Positions 3,258 through 26,362 of a stretch of 35,124 nucleotides of DNA are shown here, in pieces. Each line of letters opens with the position of its first letter. The first letter of the stretch is position 1. A program made the position numbers and the translations under genes. Where the stretch lies: positions 1-35,124 of the forward strand of contig JAKLLB010000042.1 in assembly GCA_023150345.1 (NCBI GenBank), given 5' to 3'. Source of the stretch: Aquabacterium sp. GTDB taxonomy: Bacteria > Pseudomonadota > Gammaproteobacteria > Burkholderiales > Burkholderiaceae_C. The notes beneath the pieces are model-generated. The model made no database searches, had not been told where the DNA came from, and was given only the letters and a program-made list of their open reading frames with translations.

Positions 3258-3352
3258 GGGGGAATCCTTTCTTTCTCAGGCCGATGTGAGGCCCGAGCCA
3301 ACGATTGCAAGTACCGGTGCGGCGGATCCGGCCGTCCGGAGGCGCGCAGCGC

Positions 3353-4624
3353 TCAGGCGCTGGCCTTGGCCTGTTCCCGATAGACCAGAAGGGGCTTGGC
3401 GCCCTCCTCGACGATGTGCTCGTCGATCACGACCTGTGCCACGCCGTCGAGCGTGGGCAGGTCGAACATGGTGTCGATGAGCACATGCTCCATGATGGAC
3501 CGAAGGCCGCGAGCCCCGGTCTTGCGCTCCAGCGCCTTGCGCGCGATCGCCGAGAGCGCCGACGGGCGCACCTCCAGTTCGACGCCGTCCATCGCGAAAA
3601 GCTTCTGGTATTGCTTCACGAGCGCGTTGCGGGGCTCGGTGAGGATGCGCACGAGTGCTTCGTCGGTCAGTTCGCCCAGGGTGGCAACCACGGGCAGCCG
3701 GCCCACGAGCTCCGGGATCAACCCGAATTTGATCAGGTCTTCGGGCTCGGCCTGACGGAAGAGGTCGGCCGCACGCTTCTCGGACTTGCTGTGCACCGAC
3801 GCGGCGAAGCCGATCCCCGACTTCTCGGTCCGGTTCTGGATGACCTTCTCCAAGCCGTCGAATGCACCGCCGCAGATGAACAGGATGTTCGTCGTATCGA
3901 TCTGCAGGAAGTCCTGATTCGGATGCTTGCGGCCTCCCTGTGGCGGCACACTGGCCATGGTGCCTTCGACCAACTTCAGCAGGGCTTGCTGCACGCCCTC
4001 ACCGGAGACGTCACGCGTGATGCTCGGGTTGTCTGCCTTGCGAGAGATCTTGTCGATCTCGTCGATGTAGACGATGCCGCGCTGGGCCCGCTCGACATCG
4101 TAATTGCAGTTCTGCAGCAGCTTCTGGATGATGTTCTCGACGTCCTCGCCCACGTAGCCGGCTTCTGTGAGCGTCGTGGCGTCGGCGATCACGAACGGTA
4201 CGTTCAGCAGCCGGGCCAGTGTTTGGGCCAGCAGTGTCTTCCCAGAGCCGGTGGGGCCGATGAGCAAGATGTTGCTCTTGGTGAGCTCCACCTCTTCTTT
4301 GTTGCCCGTGCCCATGTGCTTCAGGCGCTTGTAGTGGTTGTACACCGCTACTGCCAGCGTGCGCTTGGCCGTGTCCTGCCCGATCACATACTGGTCGAGA
4401 CTGGACTTGATCTCGGCGGGAACCGGCAGGTCCGACCGCGCCGCCTTGCCCTGCGAGCCATCCGCAGGCGCCTCGTCGCGGATGATGTCGTTGCACAGCT
4501 CGATGCACTCATCGCAGATGAACACCGACGGTCCGGCAATCAGTTTTTTCACCTCGTGCTGGCTCTTGCCGCAGAAGCTGCAATAGAGCACTTTCTCGCC
4601 GGAGGCGCCTTTCTTTTCGGCCAT
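3353..4624 (-). CDS. clpX: ATP-dependent protease ATPase subunit ClpX
   Basis: AAA+ unfoldase that recognises tagged or specific substrates and threads them into ClpP. The 423 residues match the usual length. The N-terminal zinc-binding domain has Cys15, Cys18, Cys37 and Cys40. Walker A GPTGSGKT is at 123-130, the pore loop GYVG at 156-159 and Walker B VYIDEID at 185-191. A weak Shine-Dalgarno CAGGA precedes the ATG. The 158-bp gap to clpP contains a TATCAT hexamer (4666-4671, minus strand) that could be a -10 box, so clpX may have its own promoter as well as read-through from clpP. Confidence 0.98.
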
Positions 4625-20988: not shown

Positions 20989-22770
20989 TCACAGTTCCTC
21001 GGACCCCAGAAGCATCTCGGTGATGCCCTTGCCTGCCTGCACCATGGGCCAGACGTTCTCGGTCGGGTCGGTGCGCACGTCGAGGAACACCGTCCGGTCC
21101 TTCAGGCGCAGCAGCTCCTTGAGTGCAGGCTCCACCTCGGACGGCTTGTCGATGCGGATGCCCACGTGCCCGTAGGCCTCAGCCAACTTGACGAAGTCGG
21201 GCAACGCATCCATGTAGCTGTGCGAATAGCGGCCGCCGTAGTCGAGCTGCTGCCACTGACGAACCATGCCGAGATACCGATTGTTGAGTGAGATGATCTT
21301 CACCGGCGTCTTGTACTGGGCACAGGTCGAGAGTTCCTGAATGCACATCTGGATCGACCCCTCGCCCGTGATGCAGACGACTTCCGACTCCGGCTTCGCC
21401 AGCTTGATGCCCATGGCATAGGGCAACCCCACCCCCATGGTGCCGAGCCCGCCGGAGTTGATCCAGCGCCTCGGCTCCTCGAAGCGGTAAAACTGGGCCG
21501 CCCACATCTGGTGCTGCCCGACGTCGGAGGTGATATAGACATCCTGCCCGCGGGTGAGCTCGCCGAGGGTCTCGACCACATACTGCGGCTTGATCACGTC
21601 GGCGCTGCGCTTGTAGGCCAGGCATTCGCGCTTGCGCCACTCGTTGATCTGCGACCACCAGGACGACAGCGCGCTCACGTCCGGCCGCGCCGAGTTCTCA
21701 CGCAGATGCGCCAGCATCTCCTGGAGCACGTCCTTGGTGTCGCCCACGATTGGAATGTCCACCCGCACGCGCTTGGAGATCGAGGACGGATCGATGTCGA
21801 TGTGAATGATCTTGCGCTCGACCTGCGCGAAGTGCTTGGGGTTGCCGATCACACGATCATCGAATCGCGCACCCACGGCCAACAGCACATCACAGTGCTG
21901 CATGGTCATGTTGGCCTCGTAGGTTCCGTGCATCCCGAGCATGCCCAGGAACTTGGGGTCGCTCGCCGGCGTGGCACCCAACCCCATCAACGTGTTGGTG
22001 CAGGGGAACCCGAGAACATCGGCCAGTTCGCGCAACTCCGCGGTTGCATTGCCCAGGATCACCCCACCGCCGGTGTAGATGTAGGGCCGTTTGGCGCCCA
22101 GCAGCAACTGCATGGCCTTGCGGATCTGGCCGCCATGACCCTTCTTGGCCGGGCTGTACGAACGCATCTCGACGCGTTCGGGATAGCTGAACGAGCAGGT
22201 CTTTACCGAGACATCCTTGGGCACATCGACGACCACCGGGCCCGGACGACCGGTGCGAGCGATGTGGAACGCCTTCTTTATCGTCGTGGCCAGGTCACGC
22301 ACGTCCTTCACCAGGAAGTTGTGCTTGACGACCGGGCGGGTGATGCCGACGGTGTCGCACTCCTGGAAAGCGTCCAGACCGATTGCCGGCGTGGGAACCT
22401 GCCCGGTGATGATCACCATCGGGATGGAGTCCATGTACGCCGTTGCGATGCCGGTCACCGCGTTGGTGACGCCGGGACCGGACGTCACCAGCGCAACACC
22501 GACATCGCCGGTCGCCCGCGCGTAGCCATCTGCGGCATGCACGGCAGCCTGCTCATGGCGCACCAATACGTGCTGGATCGACTCCTGTTTGTACAGCGCG
22601 TCGTAGATGTAGAGCACCGCGCCACCTGGGTAGCCCCAGATGTACTTGACGCCCTCTGCCTGAAGGCAGCGGACGATGATTTCCGAGCCGTTGATCTCGG
22701 TGGCGTGTGTTGGGGGGGAATGCGGTTGTGCCGATGCGGCACGCTTGACTTCCGCGGCAGACATGTCCAT
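20989..22770 (-). CDS. ilvB: Acetolactate synthase large (catalytic) subunit
   Basis: Thiamine-diphosphate enzyme for the first common step of branched-chain amino acid synthesis. It has the N-terminal Pyr domain with the catalytic Glu in VRHEQAAVHAADGYARATG and FAD/central domain features such as GARFDDRVIGN. The C-terminal ThDP/Mg motif CITGEGSIQMCIQELSTC ends in a bound Asn (SLNNRYLGMVRQWQ). I place the start at 22770 (MDMSAAEVKRAAS, AGAGG six bases upstream, 593 residues). An in-frame ATG at 22806 with AGGAGG seven bases upstream is a real alternative and adds 12 residues. Upstream lie a terminator and a leader split by a group II intron. Confidence 0.95.
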   Translation of the reverse strand: MDMSAAEVKRAASAQPHSPPTHATEINGSEIIVRCLQAEGVKYIWGYPGGAVLYIYDALYKQESIQHVLVRHEQAAVHAADGYARATGDVGVALVTSGPGVTNAVTGIATAYMDSIPMVIITGQVPTPAIGLDAFQECDTVGITRPVVKHNFLVKDVRDLATTIKKAFHIARTGRPGPVVVDVPKDVSVKTCSFSYPERVEMRSYSPAKKGHGGQIRKAMQLLLGAKRPYIYTGGGVILGNATAELRELADVLGFPCTNTLMGLGATPASDPKFLGMLGMHGTYEANMTMQHCDVLLAVGARFDDRVIGNPKHFAQVERKIIHIDIDPSSISKRVRVDIPIVGDTKDVLQEMLAHLRENSARPDVSALSSWWSQINEWRKRECLAYKRSADVIKPQYVVETLGELTRGQDVYITSDVGQHQMWAAQFYRFEEPRRWINSGGLGTMGVGLPYAMGIKLAKPESEVVCITGEGSIQMCIQELSTCAQYKTPVKIISLNNRYLGMVRQWQQLDYGGRYSHSYMDALPDFVKLAEAYGHVGIRIDKPSEVEPALKELLRLKDRTVFLDVRTDPTENVWPMVQAGKGITEMLLGSEEL

Positions 22771-22856
22771 TTCGAACCTCTGTGAATTTCTCTGACGAAA
22801 AACCATCGGTGCCCCTCCTCGCGCCCTCATGAGGCGGAATCAGAACCTGCGCGATC

Positions 22857-22887
22857 AAAAACGGCGACTCCCGGGGTCGGTGAGCCG
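22857..22887 (-). terminator. Terminator with T-tract in the ilvB leader
   Basis: On the minus strand CGGC (plus 22884-22887) then GAC (22876-22878) pair with GTCGCCG (22862-22868), a 7-bp stem with a 5-nt bulge and a 7-nt loop, followed directly by TTTTT (22857-22861). It lies 86 bp before the chosen ilvB ATG and in the same direction, where an attenuator of the ilv operon would be expected. Confidence 0.6.
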
Positions 22888-22951
22888 GCTTGAGACCTCT
22901 ATCGCTTTGTGGAGGGTAGGGACAGACCATCGCTGGTCCATCCCCCCCTAA

Positions 22952-22985
22952 GAACCGGACGTGCCTCTTTCGAGGCATCCGGCTC
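22952..22985 (-). ncRNA. Group II intron domain V (catalytic hairpin)
   Basis: A 34-nt hairpin reading GAGCCGGATGCC - TCGAAAGA - GGCACGTCCGGTTC on the minus strand. It has the AGC catalytic triad near its 5' end, the GAAA-type terminal loop and the internal bulge typical of bacterial domain V. Domain VI follows directly. Confidence 0.9.
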
Positions 22986-23047
22986 ACGCACATCACTTGT
23001 TTGTAACCACCCCGGAGTTTACCCGAGGCGGTTAACAAGTCGAAGCC

Positions 23048-24748
23048 TCATGCCGAGGCCGGCTTCACAACAGATAGTCCGTTGGCATGCACTCTGGTGT
23101 GGCACACCGGGTGCAGCAGCACCCGGTTGGACAATGCGTCCGACCCGCCTGCCACCCGAGGGATCAGGTGGTGGTCGTGCCAGCCGGTCTCATCCGACAA
23201 GACGCCGCCGCAGAGGGCGCATTGCCCGTGCTGGGACAGGAACAGCGAGGCCCATTGCTTCCGGTAGGCCATGCTTTGCAGCAGGCGCCGGGAGCGCAGG
23301 TCTTCGCCGTATGCCTCCCACCTCGGATCAAAGGGGTTGTAGCTGCCCCTGACCTTCTGGTGTCGCACGATGGCTGTATCGGCGAGCCGATACAAGCGCG
23401 CCCATCTGGGCGCTTCGTCCTCGACCGGAACCCGAACTGCAAATTCCGGCCTGCCCTCGACGGACGGCCAGTACTTCGCGGCCACCCATCTCGGGTTCTT
23501 GTTCGGATGCCTCCGACGTGCCCAGCGCGTCAACCGCCACCACAGCAGCGAGTCGAGTCGGCTGAACGTCTCCTTGGCGACCACCGGCTGGTGGTACCTT
23601 GCCCAGCCCCGTAGGACCGGGTTCAGCAGCTGGATGAGCTCCGCCTGCTTCACCGTCTTGCGCGACACGACGATCTCCTTCACCTTGCCATAGAACGCTT
23701 GCACGTTCTTCCTGCTCGGCTTGATCAGCAGGGTCCCCGAGTACTTCCGGAAATTCCAGCCGAGGAAATCGAACCCCTCGTTGATGTGTGTGACTCGCGT
23801 CTTCGCCGGCGACAGTCGCAGTCCTCGTTGTGCGAGGAAAGCTTCCACCCACGGCCGGACTTGCGTCTCCAGGAGGTCTTTCGACATCCCGGTGATCACG
23901 AAGTCATCGGCGTACCGGACCACATTGACCTTGAGCTTCTCGACCGTCGACTTGCCCAGCGCCGCACCGAGGTGCGCCAGCAGGCCGGTCTCCAGGCCGT
24001 TCAGTGCCACGTTCGCCAGGGTTGGCGAGATGATGCCGCCTTGCGGCGTGCCCGCTTCGGTGGCCGTCAGCTGGCCCTTGTAGACCACTCCGGACTTCAA
24101 CCACTGGTGGACGATTCGCTTGTCCATCCGCGCGTGCTGGACGAGCCACGCATGGTTGATGTGGTCGAAGCAGCCCTCGATGTCCGCTTCCAGCACCCAG
24201 GAGGCGGAAGCCTTCCGGGCGAGGCAGATGAACAACTGGCTCATGGCGTCGGCCGTCGAGCGATTGCGCCGAAAGCCGTAGCTGTTCGGGTCGCTCTGCG
24301 ACTCCACGACAGGCTCCAGGCCGAGCAGGTGGAGCGCCTGCATCGCCCTGTCGCGCATCGTCGGAATGCCCAGTGGGCGCTCCTTGCCGTTGGCCTTGGG
24401 GATGTAGACCCGCCGTAGAGGCGCGGGCCGGTACCCCCGTTGCTGCTTCAACCGGCTGACAGCCGCCCTTTTGCAGGCCGGCGTATCCCACAGCTCGCGG
24501 TCGACGCCTGCCGTCCGCTTGCCTTGGTTCTCTGTCACTCGTCGCACCGCCAGTGCCCTGGCGCTGAACGAGCGGGTCAGCGACCGCTGCAGGGCTTTCA
24601 CCCGGCGGTAGTCGCCTTCCTGCGTTGCCTTCGCTATCCGCATCTGCATCGTCCTCACCTGCCGGTCGACCCGCCGCCAATCGATGGCGTGCCAGGTGTC
24701 GGGCGAGTGCGAAGACGCAGAACCATCGGTGTCGATGATTTCTTCCAT
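23048..24748 (-). CDS. ltrA: Group II intron reverse transcriptase/maturase with HNH endonuclease
   Basis: Multifunctional protein encoded inside the intron, 566 residues and apparently intact. An N-terminal extension leads into the reverse-transcriptase fingers/palm, with [49 protein letters not shown] and the catalytic YADD at 279-282. The maturase (X) domain is about 340-430. The C-terminal HNH DNA endonuclease has Cys510, Cys513, His526-His527, Cys549 and His554. It should help splicing, nick the target and copy the intron into DNA. The start has CGAGG five bases upstream. All key motifs are present, so mobility may be retained. Confidence 0.97.
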
Positions 24749-25426
24749 GCTGTCCTCGTTGGTGAACCCGCGGGAGACGCACTTTTTCCCCGAGGGGAAG
24801 GTGCATCCCCTCAGGGCGTTAAGAACTCAGCAACCGGCTAACGACGGTTGCACGACGTGGAAGTGGGCCTGCTTTCGCAGCGGGGCAGCTGCCCCTATCC
24901 CGGCCGTTACAGCCGGGCGTTCGCTTTCTCCACGATCCCATACCCCCTGGTCCGACAGGTCGCCTTGCGGCTTCCCTGCCCGATCACCTAGATGATCGGG
25001 CGGACGGTGGGGCTTACCACGTTCCTCTGATGGCCGACAGCGCGGTGGTGATCCGCGATGTCTCTCCGTTTAGGGCCCGTCTATCCCGGGGCTGCAGCGT
25101 CAGCGACGTGCTCCGGCCTCGCACTGGAGCATCCTGGCAGCGTGCCGTTTTGGCTATGGCCTGACAGCAGGTTTGGCCACTCAATGCTTACCCGGGTTCA
25201 GACGACGGTTCACTTACGTTACCCATGCGGAACTCGCCTGGCCTCTCGTCCGCCTTCCTGCTGGCAGAGTCCGTGGTCGTCCTCGCGGATCGAGCCACGC
25301 CACCGAAGTGGGAGACGTTGTCGGATGGGCTTCACACAAGGCCGTTACCCGCCTTGCATGCCATCCTAGGCGACTGTTGGTCGCACAACAGGTCACGGCA
25401 CCGGCAAGCCGGGCGTGACAAGGCAC

Positions 25427-25692
25427 TCAGAGACTTGATCGCTCTTGAAAGACCCGTCTCCCGACGGTGCACGCCCGCGTTCTGCCCAGGGCAGTTGCGG
25501 TGCGCGCCTCTTTCACGGTCCGCCTGGAGAAACCCCAGGCATTCCGTCAACGATCCGCCAGAGGCGGATGCACTTCGTGGGCCTGTCAGCCCGTGATCAG
25601 AGCCGAGGCCCCGATCGCTCTTGAAATGCTGCGTAGCCCCGCAGCTAGGGAAGAGCGACACCACGTGTCGCACGCGAAGCAGCATTATTGCA
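25427..25692 (-). promoter_or_regulatory. Upstream half of the ilvB leader, with repeats and hairpins
   Basis: This gene-free stretch lies between the divergent sigma-factor gene and the intron. An extended -10 (TGC-AATAAT on the minus strand, plus 25684-25692) could start the ilvB leader RNA; no good -35 is visible. The RNA could fold into GCTGCG/CGCAGC (25628-25645), ATCCGCC/GGCGGAT (25553-25569), GCCTGG/CCAGGC (25522-25540), CTGCCC/GGGCAG (25482-25494) and CCGTC/GACGG (25454-25467). The 14-mer GATCGCTCTTGAAA occurs twice (plus 25437-25450 and 25613-25626). No complete short leader peptide could be assigned. Confidence 0.5.
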
Positions 25693-25738
25693 TCAGTTGC
25701 TCGACGACCCGCCCCTGCGGTCATCCGCATGGAGCCGA

Positions 25739-25747
25739 TGACATAAT
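25739..25747 (+). promoter_or_regulatory. Putative extended -10 promoter of the sigma-factor gene
   Basis: TGA-CATAAT is an extended -10 with a 5/6 core, about 45 bases before the TTG start. The -35 position is poor. It lies back to back with the putative ilvB promoter at 25684-25692. Confidence 0.45.
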
Positions 25748-25792
25748 CGCGCCCGCTCTCGTCCGGCCCGTTACACGCCGGGCAGGTCAGCC

Positions 25793-26362
25793 TTGGCAAC
25801 CGACAAAGAACTCACCGACTTCCTGCGCAGTGCCGAGCGGCGCGCCTTCAAGCGCACCGTCTACGCCGTTCGCGACGAGGACGCTGCGCTGGACATCGTC
25901 CAGGATGCCATGATCCGGTTGGCCGAGAAGTACGCCGACCATACGGCCGCCGAGTGGCCGCTGCTGTTCCAGCGCATCCTGTCCAACGCCACCATGGACT
26001 GGTTCAGGCGTCAACGCGTGCGCAACGCCGTGATGCAGAACCTCTCGGACTTCGAGGCCGATCACGATGATGGCGGCGACTTCGATCTGCTGGAGACACT
26101 GGAGGTCGCCGACGGGCTGCTGGGCACGGAAAGTGCAGCCGAGACAGTCTCGCGGGCACAAATCCTGCAGATCATCGAAACCGAGGTTCAACGACTGCCG
26201 ACGCGTCAACGCGAAGCGTTCCTCCTGCGTTACTGGGAAGAACTCGATGTTGCTGAGACAGCGCTCGTCATGGGATGCTCGGAGGGCAGCGTGAAGACGC
26301 ACTGCTCGCGGGCGGTTCACGCGCTGGCGAAGGCGCTTCGAGCCCAGGGTATCCCATCATGA
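25793..26362 (+). CDS. ECF-type RNA polymerase sigma factor
   Basis: A 189-residue sigma-70 family protein. Region 2 covers about residues 15-80, with ALDIVQDAMIRLAEKY and the DWFRRQR DNA-melting end. Region 4 (about 125-180) includes LPTRQREAFLLRYWEELDVAETALVMGCSEGSVKTHCSRA, the -35-binding helix-turn-helix. Between them is an acidic linker (DFEADHDDGGDFD). The start is TTG, supported by AGG six bases upstream and the family-typical MATDKELTDFL. Its stop overlaps the next ATG (ATGA at 26359-26362), coupling it to a membrane protein. It is divergent from the ilvB leader. The target promoters are unknown. Confidence 0.93.
   Translation: MATDKELTDFLRSAERRAFKRTVYAVRDEDAALDIVQDAMIRLAEKYADHTAAEWPLLFQRILSNATMDWFRRQRVRNAVMQNLSDFEADHDDGGDFDLLETLEVADGLLGTESAAETVSRAQILQIIETEVQRLPTRQREAFLLRYWEELDVAETALVMGCSEGSVKTHCSRAVHALAKALRAQGIPS

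Follow-up and report, generated by a model that had tools for sequence, protein, structure and literature searches.

The window, that is, the whole stretch of 35,124 nucleotides that was analysed, carries a group II intron in the leader of ilvB, in the sense direction with the gene. The features of this locus are as follows.

20989..22770, minus strand: ilvB, acetolactate synthase large subunit (protein-model match)
22771..22910, minus strand: 3' exon, the native ilvB leader, 140 nt
22911..25673, minus strand: group II intron, 2763 nt, GTGCGACACG...CCCTACCCTCC (empty site in relatives, homologous introns)
22911..22951, minus strand: domain VI and intron 3' end (Rfam and sequence comparison)
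22911-22987, minus strand: RF00029 (D5-D6), Rfam, 61.8 bits, E 5.4e-10
22952..22985, minus strand: domain V (Rfam and sequence comparison)
23048..24748, minus strand: intron-encoded protein with reverse transcriptase (RT), maturase and HNH domains, a 566-aa ORF with YADD present
25242..25392, minus strand: group II intron core RF02012 (D1-D4), Rfam, 109.9 bits, E 1.8e-22
25393..25673, minus strand: 5' part of the intron preceding the Rfam D1 match, 281 nt
25684..25689, minus strand: putative ilvB -10 element AATAAT with TGC before it (extended -10), 10 nt from the intron

The intron and its ends

An earlier reading of the letters alone, the first-pass annotation, had described an ORF-bearing group II intron in the sense direction upstream of ilvB, and this was borne out by Rfam and by the protein models. 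The encoded protein matched TIGR04416 with 367.6 bits (cut-off 300) and also matched RVT_1, GIIM and HNH. Among the hallmarks of mobile group II introns, D5 and D6 and the D1-D4 core are present and the 5' end, GTGCGACACG at 25673, agrees with GUGYG. The consensus for the 3' end of group II introns is AY, from which the window intron departs, ending in ...CCCTACCCTCC according to the empty site. Other introns of the clade end in AC or CC. Because non-AY ends are found repeatedly in the clade and the remaining testable hallmarks are present, we take it as a tolerated variation.

In the intron-free relatives the DNA is continuous across the junction, with ...GCTTCGC joined directly to ACAAAGCG... 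(in L004, for example, GATGCAATAATGCTGCTTCGC is followed by ACAAAGCG). This empty site joins 25674 to 22910, and the window bears the same letters on both sides of 22911-25673. When 80 relatives were searched with window positions 25387-25792, G019 was found to have an intron copy that is 96% identical, and its ilvB is 98% identical to that of the window. The same search gave a 46-base match in G017 which starts exactly at GTGCGACACG (window 25673) and lies elsewhere in that genome; the homologous intron at this different site begins with GTGCGACACG. Since the empty sites and the homologous intron fix the ends, the intron is 2763 nt long and starts 10 nt past AATAAT. The candidate exon-binding sequences, EBS1 and EBS2, also covary with a junction at 25673. 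The 5' end previously placed at 25426 (GTGCC...) is, by the empty sites, the homologous intron and this covariation, 247 nt inside the intron, and the 3' end given as 22909 is corrected to 22911. The comparison with the empty site had been suggested as a check, and it upheld an insertion upstream of ilvB but not the proposed 5' boundary. One copy of the intron was found in the window's genome, a draft of 251 contigs in which copies may have been collapsed.

The maturase of the window has a dN/dS of 0.20-0.25 against four relatives and, judging by this, seems to be under selection. In the comparison of the window (23051-24748) with G019:C316, dS was 0.145 for the maturase and 0.383 for ilvB. 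With dS lower for the maturase, the intron may have been transferred from one of these two lineages to the other after their split, possibly by lateral homing to the same ilvB site; the contrast is that of a single gene pair.

The ilvB loci number 30 in total, of which the 26 intron-free ones were read, with the window, G019 and the truncated L022 and L024 omitted. An xATAAT hexamer is found in 25 of the 26 (L025 has none), and it lies 154-169 nt ahead of the start codon in 23 loci; for L026 and L029 the distances, 197 and 168, are counted from a protein match that begins inside the gene. In many of these relatives TGC or TGT precedes the hexamer, which resembles an extended -10 element. Since it is present in intron-free relatives, the -10 element of ilvB is older than the intron. 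The candidate promoter proposed earlier at 25684-25692 is this same element; we also agree that the intron lies downstream of it and that its transcripts must cross the intron. A sigma-70 consensus scan of 22600-25900 on both strands gave no match, which says little because the scan demands a -35 box and misses the conserved -10 element too. Transcription usually starts 7 nt after the hexamer, and with this distance the 5' exon of ilvB would be about 4 nt. The ilvB transcript would then have only a few nucleotides of 5' exon, followed by the 2763 nt intron and the native 140-nt leader.

The last 60 nt or so of this leader (22771-22830) look strongly conserved in relatives, and the same stretch holds an in-frame upstream ATG (ATGGTTTTTCGT...). 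In L020, L023, L027 and L028 a TAG in the frame of the upstream ATG gives a short MVFR peptide.

A promoter-like hexamer ahead of related introns

When contigs were scanned with five aligned maturases, 80 loci came up, and these together with the loci of further searches and the window made 98 rows. L059 and G017 are one guaB record from two collections and therefore the totals of 98, 70, 65 and 60 given here each contain one double. The 5' end was set for 81 of the 98 rows by a first rule; among the other 17, seven were placed at groEL by a second rule and ten stayed unplaced. Five of these ten are in the promoter clade, four of them cut by contig ends and the fifth, L129, not. Setting aside from the 81 the introns at the groEL stop codon (4), in tRNA-Gly (2) and with a short 5' part (10) left 65 introns, which were grouped into 40 flank clusters by joining flanks with 60% identity over 40 nt. 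L083 and L140 have identical flanks, as do L088 and L090, each pair lying within one cluster, and L110 and L139 were merged by the 60% rule into one cluster even though they are at different genes. Forty clusters are not forty genes, because guaB and ahcY are each behind two clusters.

A TAnnnT hexamer was found 9-12 nt upstream of the intron in 36 of the 40 flank clusters (35 of 39 without the doubled L059), with a spacing of exactly 10 in 24. At each of the other spacings tested (0-8 and 13-34) it was found in 0 to 2 clusters. Shuffled flanks gave a mean of 1.9 clusters and a maximum of 9 in 2000 shuffles, and random upstream positions in the same loci had TAnnnT at 162 of 20019 (0.8%). The four clusters lacking it are those of L086, L096, L108 (CACAAT) and the window, whose AATAAT agrees at five of six positions. 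When all promoter-clade introns with a 5' end are counted singly, 60 of 65 have the hexamer. Among sister introns TAnnnT at 9-12 nt was seen in 0 of 10 with the short 5' part, 0 of 11 at groEL and 0 of 2 in tRNA-Gly. The -35 boxes are weak, with at least four of six matches in 9 of 40 flanks versus 9.0% in shuffles, and this was counted against the promoter reading. L086 and L096 are not at promoters; their flanks read as gene ends, like those of the groEL lineage.

The pattern was tested out of sample on 299 genomes of another family, that of G360, of which 41 had copies under strict cut-offs, with at least 29 new loci. A 5' end was available for 28 of the 29, L201 having none in its stretch, and the hexamer was present at 9-12 nt in 28 of 28. 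Of these, 18 were at known sites, some of them possibly from the same genomes as in the original maturase scan, two were duplicates, and eight made new clusters (8/8 with the hexamer), two of which, L197 and L220, seem to precede the same gene. Among three plasmid copies, the hexamer of L191 is TACTAT with a spacing of 10, L192 is a short-type intron that has no hexamer, and L190 is a circle without flanks. L190 (CP075775.1, 1-2837) is a 2837-bp circular 'plasmid' record that is a single intron of the same kind, head to tail (...CTCTACCCGAC running into GTGCGACACG...), either an intron DNA circle or an assembly artefact. With the same strict cut-offs, and with the window's genome counted, the lineage was found in 11 of 399 genomes of the order and in 3 of 369 genomes of the class, the latter giving one new locus, L193. 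The lineage is rare outside its main hosts.

In a FastTree tree of the maturases one bipartition with support 1.0 unites 70 of the 98 rows, and these contain the promoter-type introns: 63 rows are at promoter-like sites (the window and G019 included), two are at gene ends and five are without a 5' end. The groEL introns are outside this promoter clade. The distance from the 5' end to the ORF is 824-1289 nt in promoter-lineage introns versus 628-647 nt in ten sister introns. L129 has a promoter-clade maturase and no recognisable intron 5' end, and the DNA upstream resembles trpA; it is probably 5'-truncated, because no 5' end was seen despite 5 kb of upstream sequence. In L056 (3153-3226, minus strand) and L149 (1389-1462, plus strand) related introns break a tRNA-Gly gene near the anticodon, and each of these introns holds an intact tRNA-Gly(CCC) upstream of the maturase ORF, like a replacement.

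The genes downstream of promoter-lineage introns are co-oriented with them, and in most clusters the distance to the start of such a gene or tRNA is at most about 210 nt, some of the gene starts being ORF calls in GC-rich DNA. The downstream gene could be named in 29 of the 40 clusters: guaB, ndk, bamE, an aminotransferase, psd, ppsA, ptsN, ribF, secA, uvrC, hpnD, a ribonuclease, FKBP, secB, rnt, erpA, gltX, ahcY (twice), tig, lptD, hemB, grxD, an aminotransferase IV (ilvE-like), purL, a tetrapyrrole methylase, an APH-family kinase, ilvB and tRNA-Leu. Carriers include Roseateles koreensis hw8 (at guaB) and Cupriavidus necator SHC 2-3 (at the FKBP gene). The names for L062, L078 and L091 have strong E-values with scores below the curated cut-off, and that for L066 is just under the cut-off in NCBIfam and over it in Pfam. 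A family scan of the genes downstream of L063, L072, L086, L089, L094, L096 and L104 gave no family, and both the scan and the count of 29 leave out L059 (10 residues of a guaB-like start), G037, L141 and L142. The earlier premise that group II introns avoid essential biosynthetic operons does not fit this lineage, which is mostly at the promoters of housekeeping genes. What lies at ilvB is one case of something broader, a group II intron lineage that seems to specialise in the -10 boxes of promoters, most of them belonging to housekeeping genes.

Joined flanks were used to look for occupied and empty sites. For ahcY, 24 of 40 genomes were matched, all of one genus; 19 read through, in four the flanks lay about 3 kb apart on one contig, and in one they lay on separate contigs. 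For ribF, 20 of 41 genomes were matched, of which 13 read through, six matched on one side only and one was a carrier. Sites that are filled in some genomes and empty in others are as expected for homing. The hexamers are also present in the empty relatives at ahcY, ribF and ilvB. At ahcY, a model of the S-adenosylhomocysteine (SAH) aptamer in the empty relative L150 starts a few bases before the junction, in keeping with transcription that begins only a few bases ahead of the intron's insertion point. In L087, L092, L097 and L151 the intron lies at the ahcY SAH riboswitch or precedes it by no more than about 40 nt. L137 has tandem tRNA-Leu(CAG) genes (3331-3415 and 3629-3713) with the intron at the promoter of the first one, and the promoter of the second copy resembles an empty site.

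The 5' exon ends in ATG in four of the 40 clusters (L104, L108, L119 and L142), and in 4 of 4 the 3' exon is in frame for at least 200 codons; frame 0 is open for 100 codons in 10 of the 36 clusters whose 5' exon does not end in ATG. From these frames the four look like leaderless genes with the start codon split from the body.

Reading of the target and proposed mechanism

The 65 intron 5' halves were aligned, and columns able to pair with the flank were sought in the alignment. The pairing elements found in this way are located in the window as follows.

25117..25122, minus strand: EBS1 GCGAGG, intron 5' half, upstream of the ORF
25183..25187, minus strand: EBS2 GCATT, intron 5' half, upstream of the ORF
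25674..25679, minus strand: IBS1 CTTCGC, the final 6 nt before the intron, in the expected transcription start region
25682..25686, minus strand: IBS2 AATGC, overlapping the last 3 nt of the -10 box

The EBS1 candidate column scored 0.92 for the six bases preceding the intron (background mean 0.34, SD 0.06) and the EBS2 candidate column 0.78 for bases -13 to -9 (background 0.33, SD 0.07). The EBS1-IBS1 score was 0.917 versus 0.417 +/- 0.029 with permuted flanks (maximum 0.525 in 5000 permutations), and the Watson-Crick pairs seen at each EBS1 position include all four types. When EBS2 may slide freely from -2 to +4, its five bases all pair in 39 of 40 clusters; the mean is 4.975 versus 3.29 +/- 0.10 and a maximum of 3.63 for 2000 permuted flanks with the same slide, and the partner of EBS2 is the last 3 nt of the -10 box plus the next 2 nt. 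In the eight new clusters EBS2 pairs 5/5 in 8 of 8 and EBS1 pairs at 4.5-6 of 6. When the hexamer is anchored by EBS2, position 1 is T in 36 of 40 clusters, and all 40 have A at position 2 and T at position 6. Neither EBS reads positions 1 and 2, and therefore their conservation would reflect recognition by the protein or selection of true promoters. Since an active -10 box is absent from the RNA of its own promoter, the EBS2-IBS2 covariation would reflect recognition of a DNA target, as in retrohoming. Active boxes would therefore mean that EBS2 works on DNA, during retrohoming into promoters; transcripts from promoters farther upstream would be an escape from this argument. The boundaries, empty sites, -10 spacing, EBS/IBS covariation, monophyly and co-oriented genes rest on sequence.

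We propose that the window intron very probably belongs to a lineage whose ribonucleoprotein (RNP) homes to sigma-70 -10 elements. In this proposal EBS2 would pair with the final three bases of the hexamer and the following two, EBS1 would pair with the six bases ahead of the insertion point, and the TA of the hexamer, unread by either, would probably be recognised by the intron-encoded protein. The intron would land in sense with the gene, 9-12 nt past the -10 box, which is near position +4/+5 of the transcript. The host promoter would then drive the intron, the maturase and the gene alike, the spliced product would be a nearly native mRNA, and the same EBS pairings would allow retrohoming into empty promoters. 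What we infer is where transcription starts, that the intron is spliced and mobile, and that the protein reads TA. A more far-reaching version is that a retroelement recognises promoters by RNA base-pairing: the RNP would capture -10 boxes, perhaps melted in open complexes, insert at the transcription starts of housekeeping genes and splice from a 5' exon of 3-5 nt, which in one sub-lineage would be essentially the AUG of a leaderless mRNA. This version we offer tentatively, as a possibility with somewhat less than an even chance; if it is true, genes carrying introns of that sub-lineage would be unable to use their own AUG unless the intron is spliced out.

The main alternative shares the reading of the site with our proposal and differs in whether promoters are targeted. 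In it, TAnnnT would be read by the protein and EBS2 for the intron's own reasons and the location in promoters would be incidental, intergenic insertions being those that survive and the genes staying expressed. In the gene-end loci L086 and L096 the second and sixth bases of the hexamer are still A and T (GAACGT and CAAGAT), as if the machinery itself may want these bases, and this, like the weak -35 signals, favours an incidental location. Against it, -10 elements show this conserved pattern of T, A, three weak positions and T, the hexamers are in the empty relatives too, and most clusters have the co-oriented gene or tRNA close by. Moreover, a bare TAnnnT specificity should yield many insertions in coding DNA. 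We judge an incidental location to be unlikely.

Two other explanations make use of the motif at 25426. A nested arrangement, or twintron, in which an inner intron from 25426 lies within an outer ORF-less intron from 25673, would account for two possible 5' motifs on one strand, but the long 5' part is common to the 65 introns of the lineage and the window has a single D5-D6 at the Rfam gathering score, which makes it highly improbable. Still harder to credit is the account of the first-pass annotation, in which an ordinary group II intron had inserted in the ilvB leader (22909-25426) as an isolated event. The GTGCC at 25426 does resemble a 5' end, and a TCAGAG stretch in the intron 5' half looks able to pair with the preceding six bases, but homologous introns begin at GTGCGACACG, the junction of 25674 with 22910 in the empty site refutes the boundary, and covariation puts EBS1 and EBS2 elsewhere. 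TCAGAG was dropped as a pairing partner because covariation shows EBS1 at 25117-25122. Insertion after an intrinsic terminator, as in group IIC introns, was also considered and rejected, the 5' flank containing a -10 box instead; in a scan of 22600-25900 terminator-like sites were on the plus strand only, with none on the minus strand.

If homing to -10 elements is true, a selfish intron can live in essential operons because it is inserted after the promoter and before the message, gaining the promoter and leaving the gene intact after splicing. This raises the questions of whether the RNP is able to track open complexes, how short a 5' exon can be and still be spliced, and whether housekeeping genes such as ilvB, gltX and guaB depend on splicing of the intron. 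Such an intron may also be a natural tool for recognising promoters.

Comparison with known group II introns

A promoter-homing group II intron was not found in the literature searched, which consisted of open-licence PMC papers, and the portion of PMC12350094 consulted does not mention promoter sites. Three target specificities of group II introns are named in the consulted portion of a 2015 review, promoters not among them, and most bacterial copies are placed there outside housekeeping genes (PMC4424553). The -10 box of promoters would, if our proposal is true, be a fourth.

The introns at the groEL stop codon, found in the same search, resemble the lineage of the window in having a related maturase, the 5' end GTGCGAC and a long 5' part; they differ in lying at a stop codon, in having no TAnnnT at 9-12 nt (0/11) and in falling outside the promoter clade. 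According to the part of PMC4465626 consulted, which cites Michel et al. 2007, the groEL intron of Azotobacter comes from a monophyletic subset whose 5' extremity carries a large insertion. That 2007 paper may contain related observations.

Group IIC introns insert after intrinsic terminators or at attC sites and have proteins without an endonuclease domain, as stated in the same portion of the 2015 review (PMC4424553). They are like the window lineage in that the target is a transcription signal and not one unique sequence, whereas in the window lineage this signal would be a -10 box, the protein has HNH and EBS2 pairs fully with the target. The likeness to Ll.LtrB and RmInt1 is in the EBS1/IBS1 and EBS2/IBS2 pairings, the RT-maturase and presumed retrohoming. 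Ll.LtrB and RmInt1 are ordinary homing group II introns; in the promoter lineage, in contrast, the EBS letters of each copy match its own promoter, and the target class appears to be a functional motif present at many genes rather than a single homing site.
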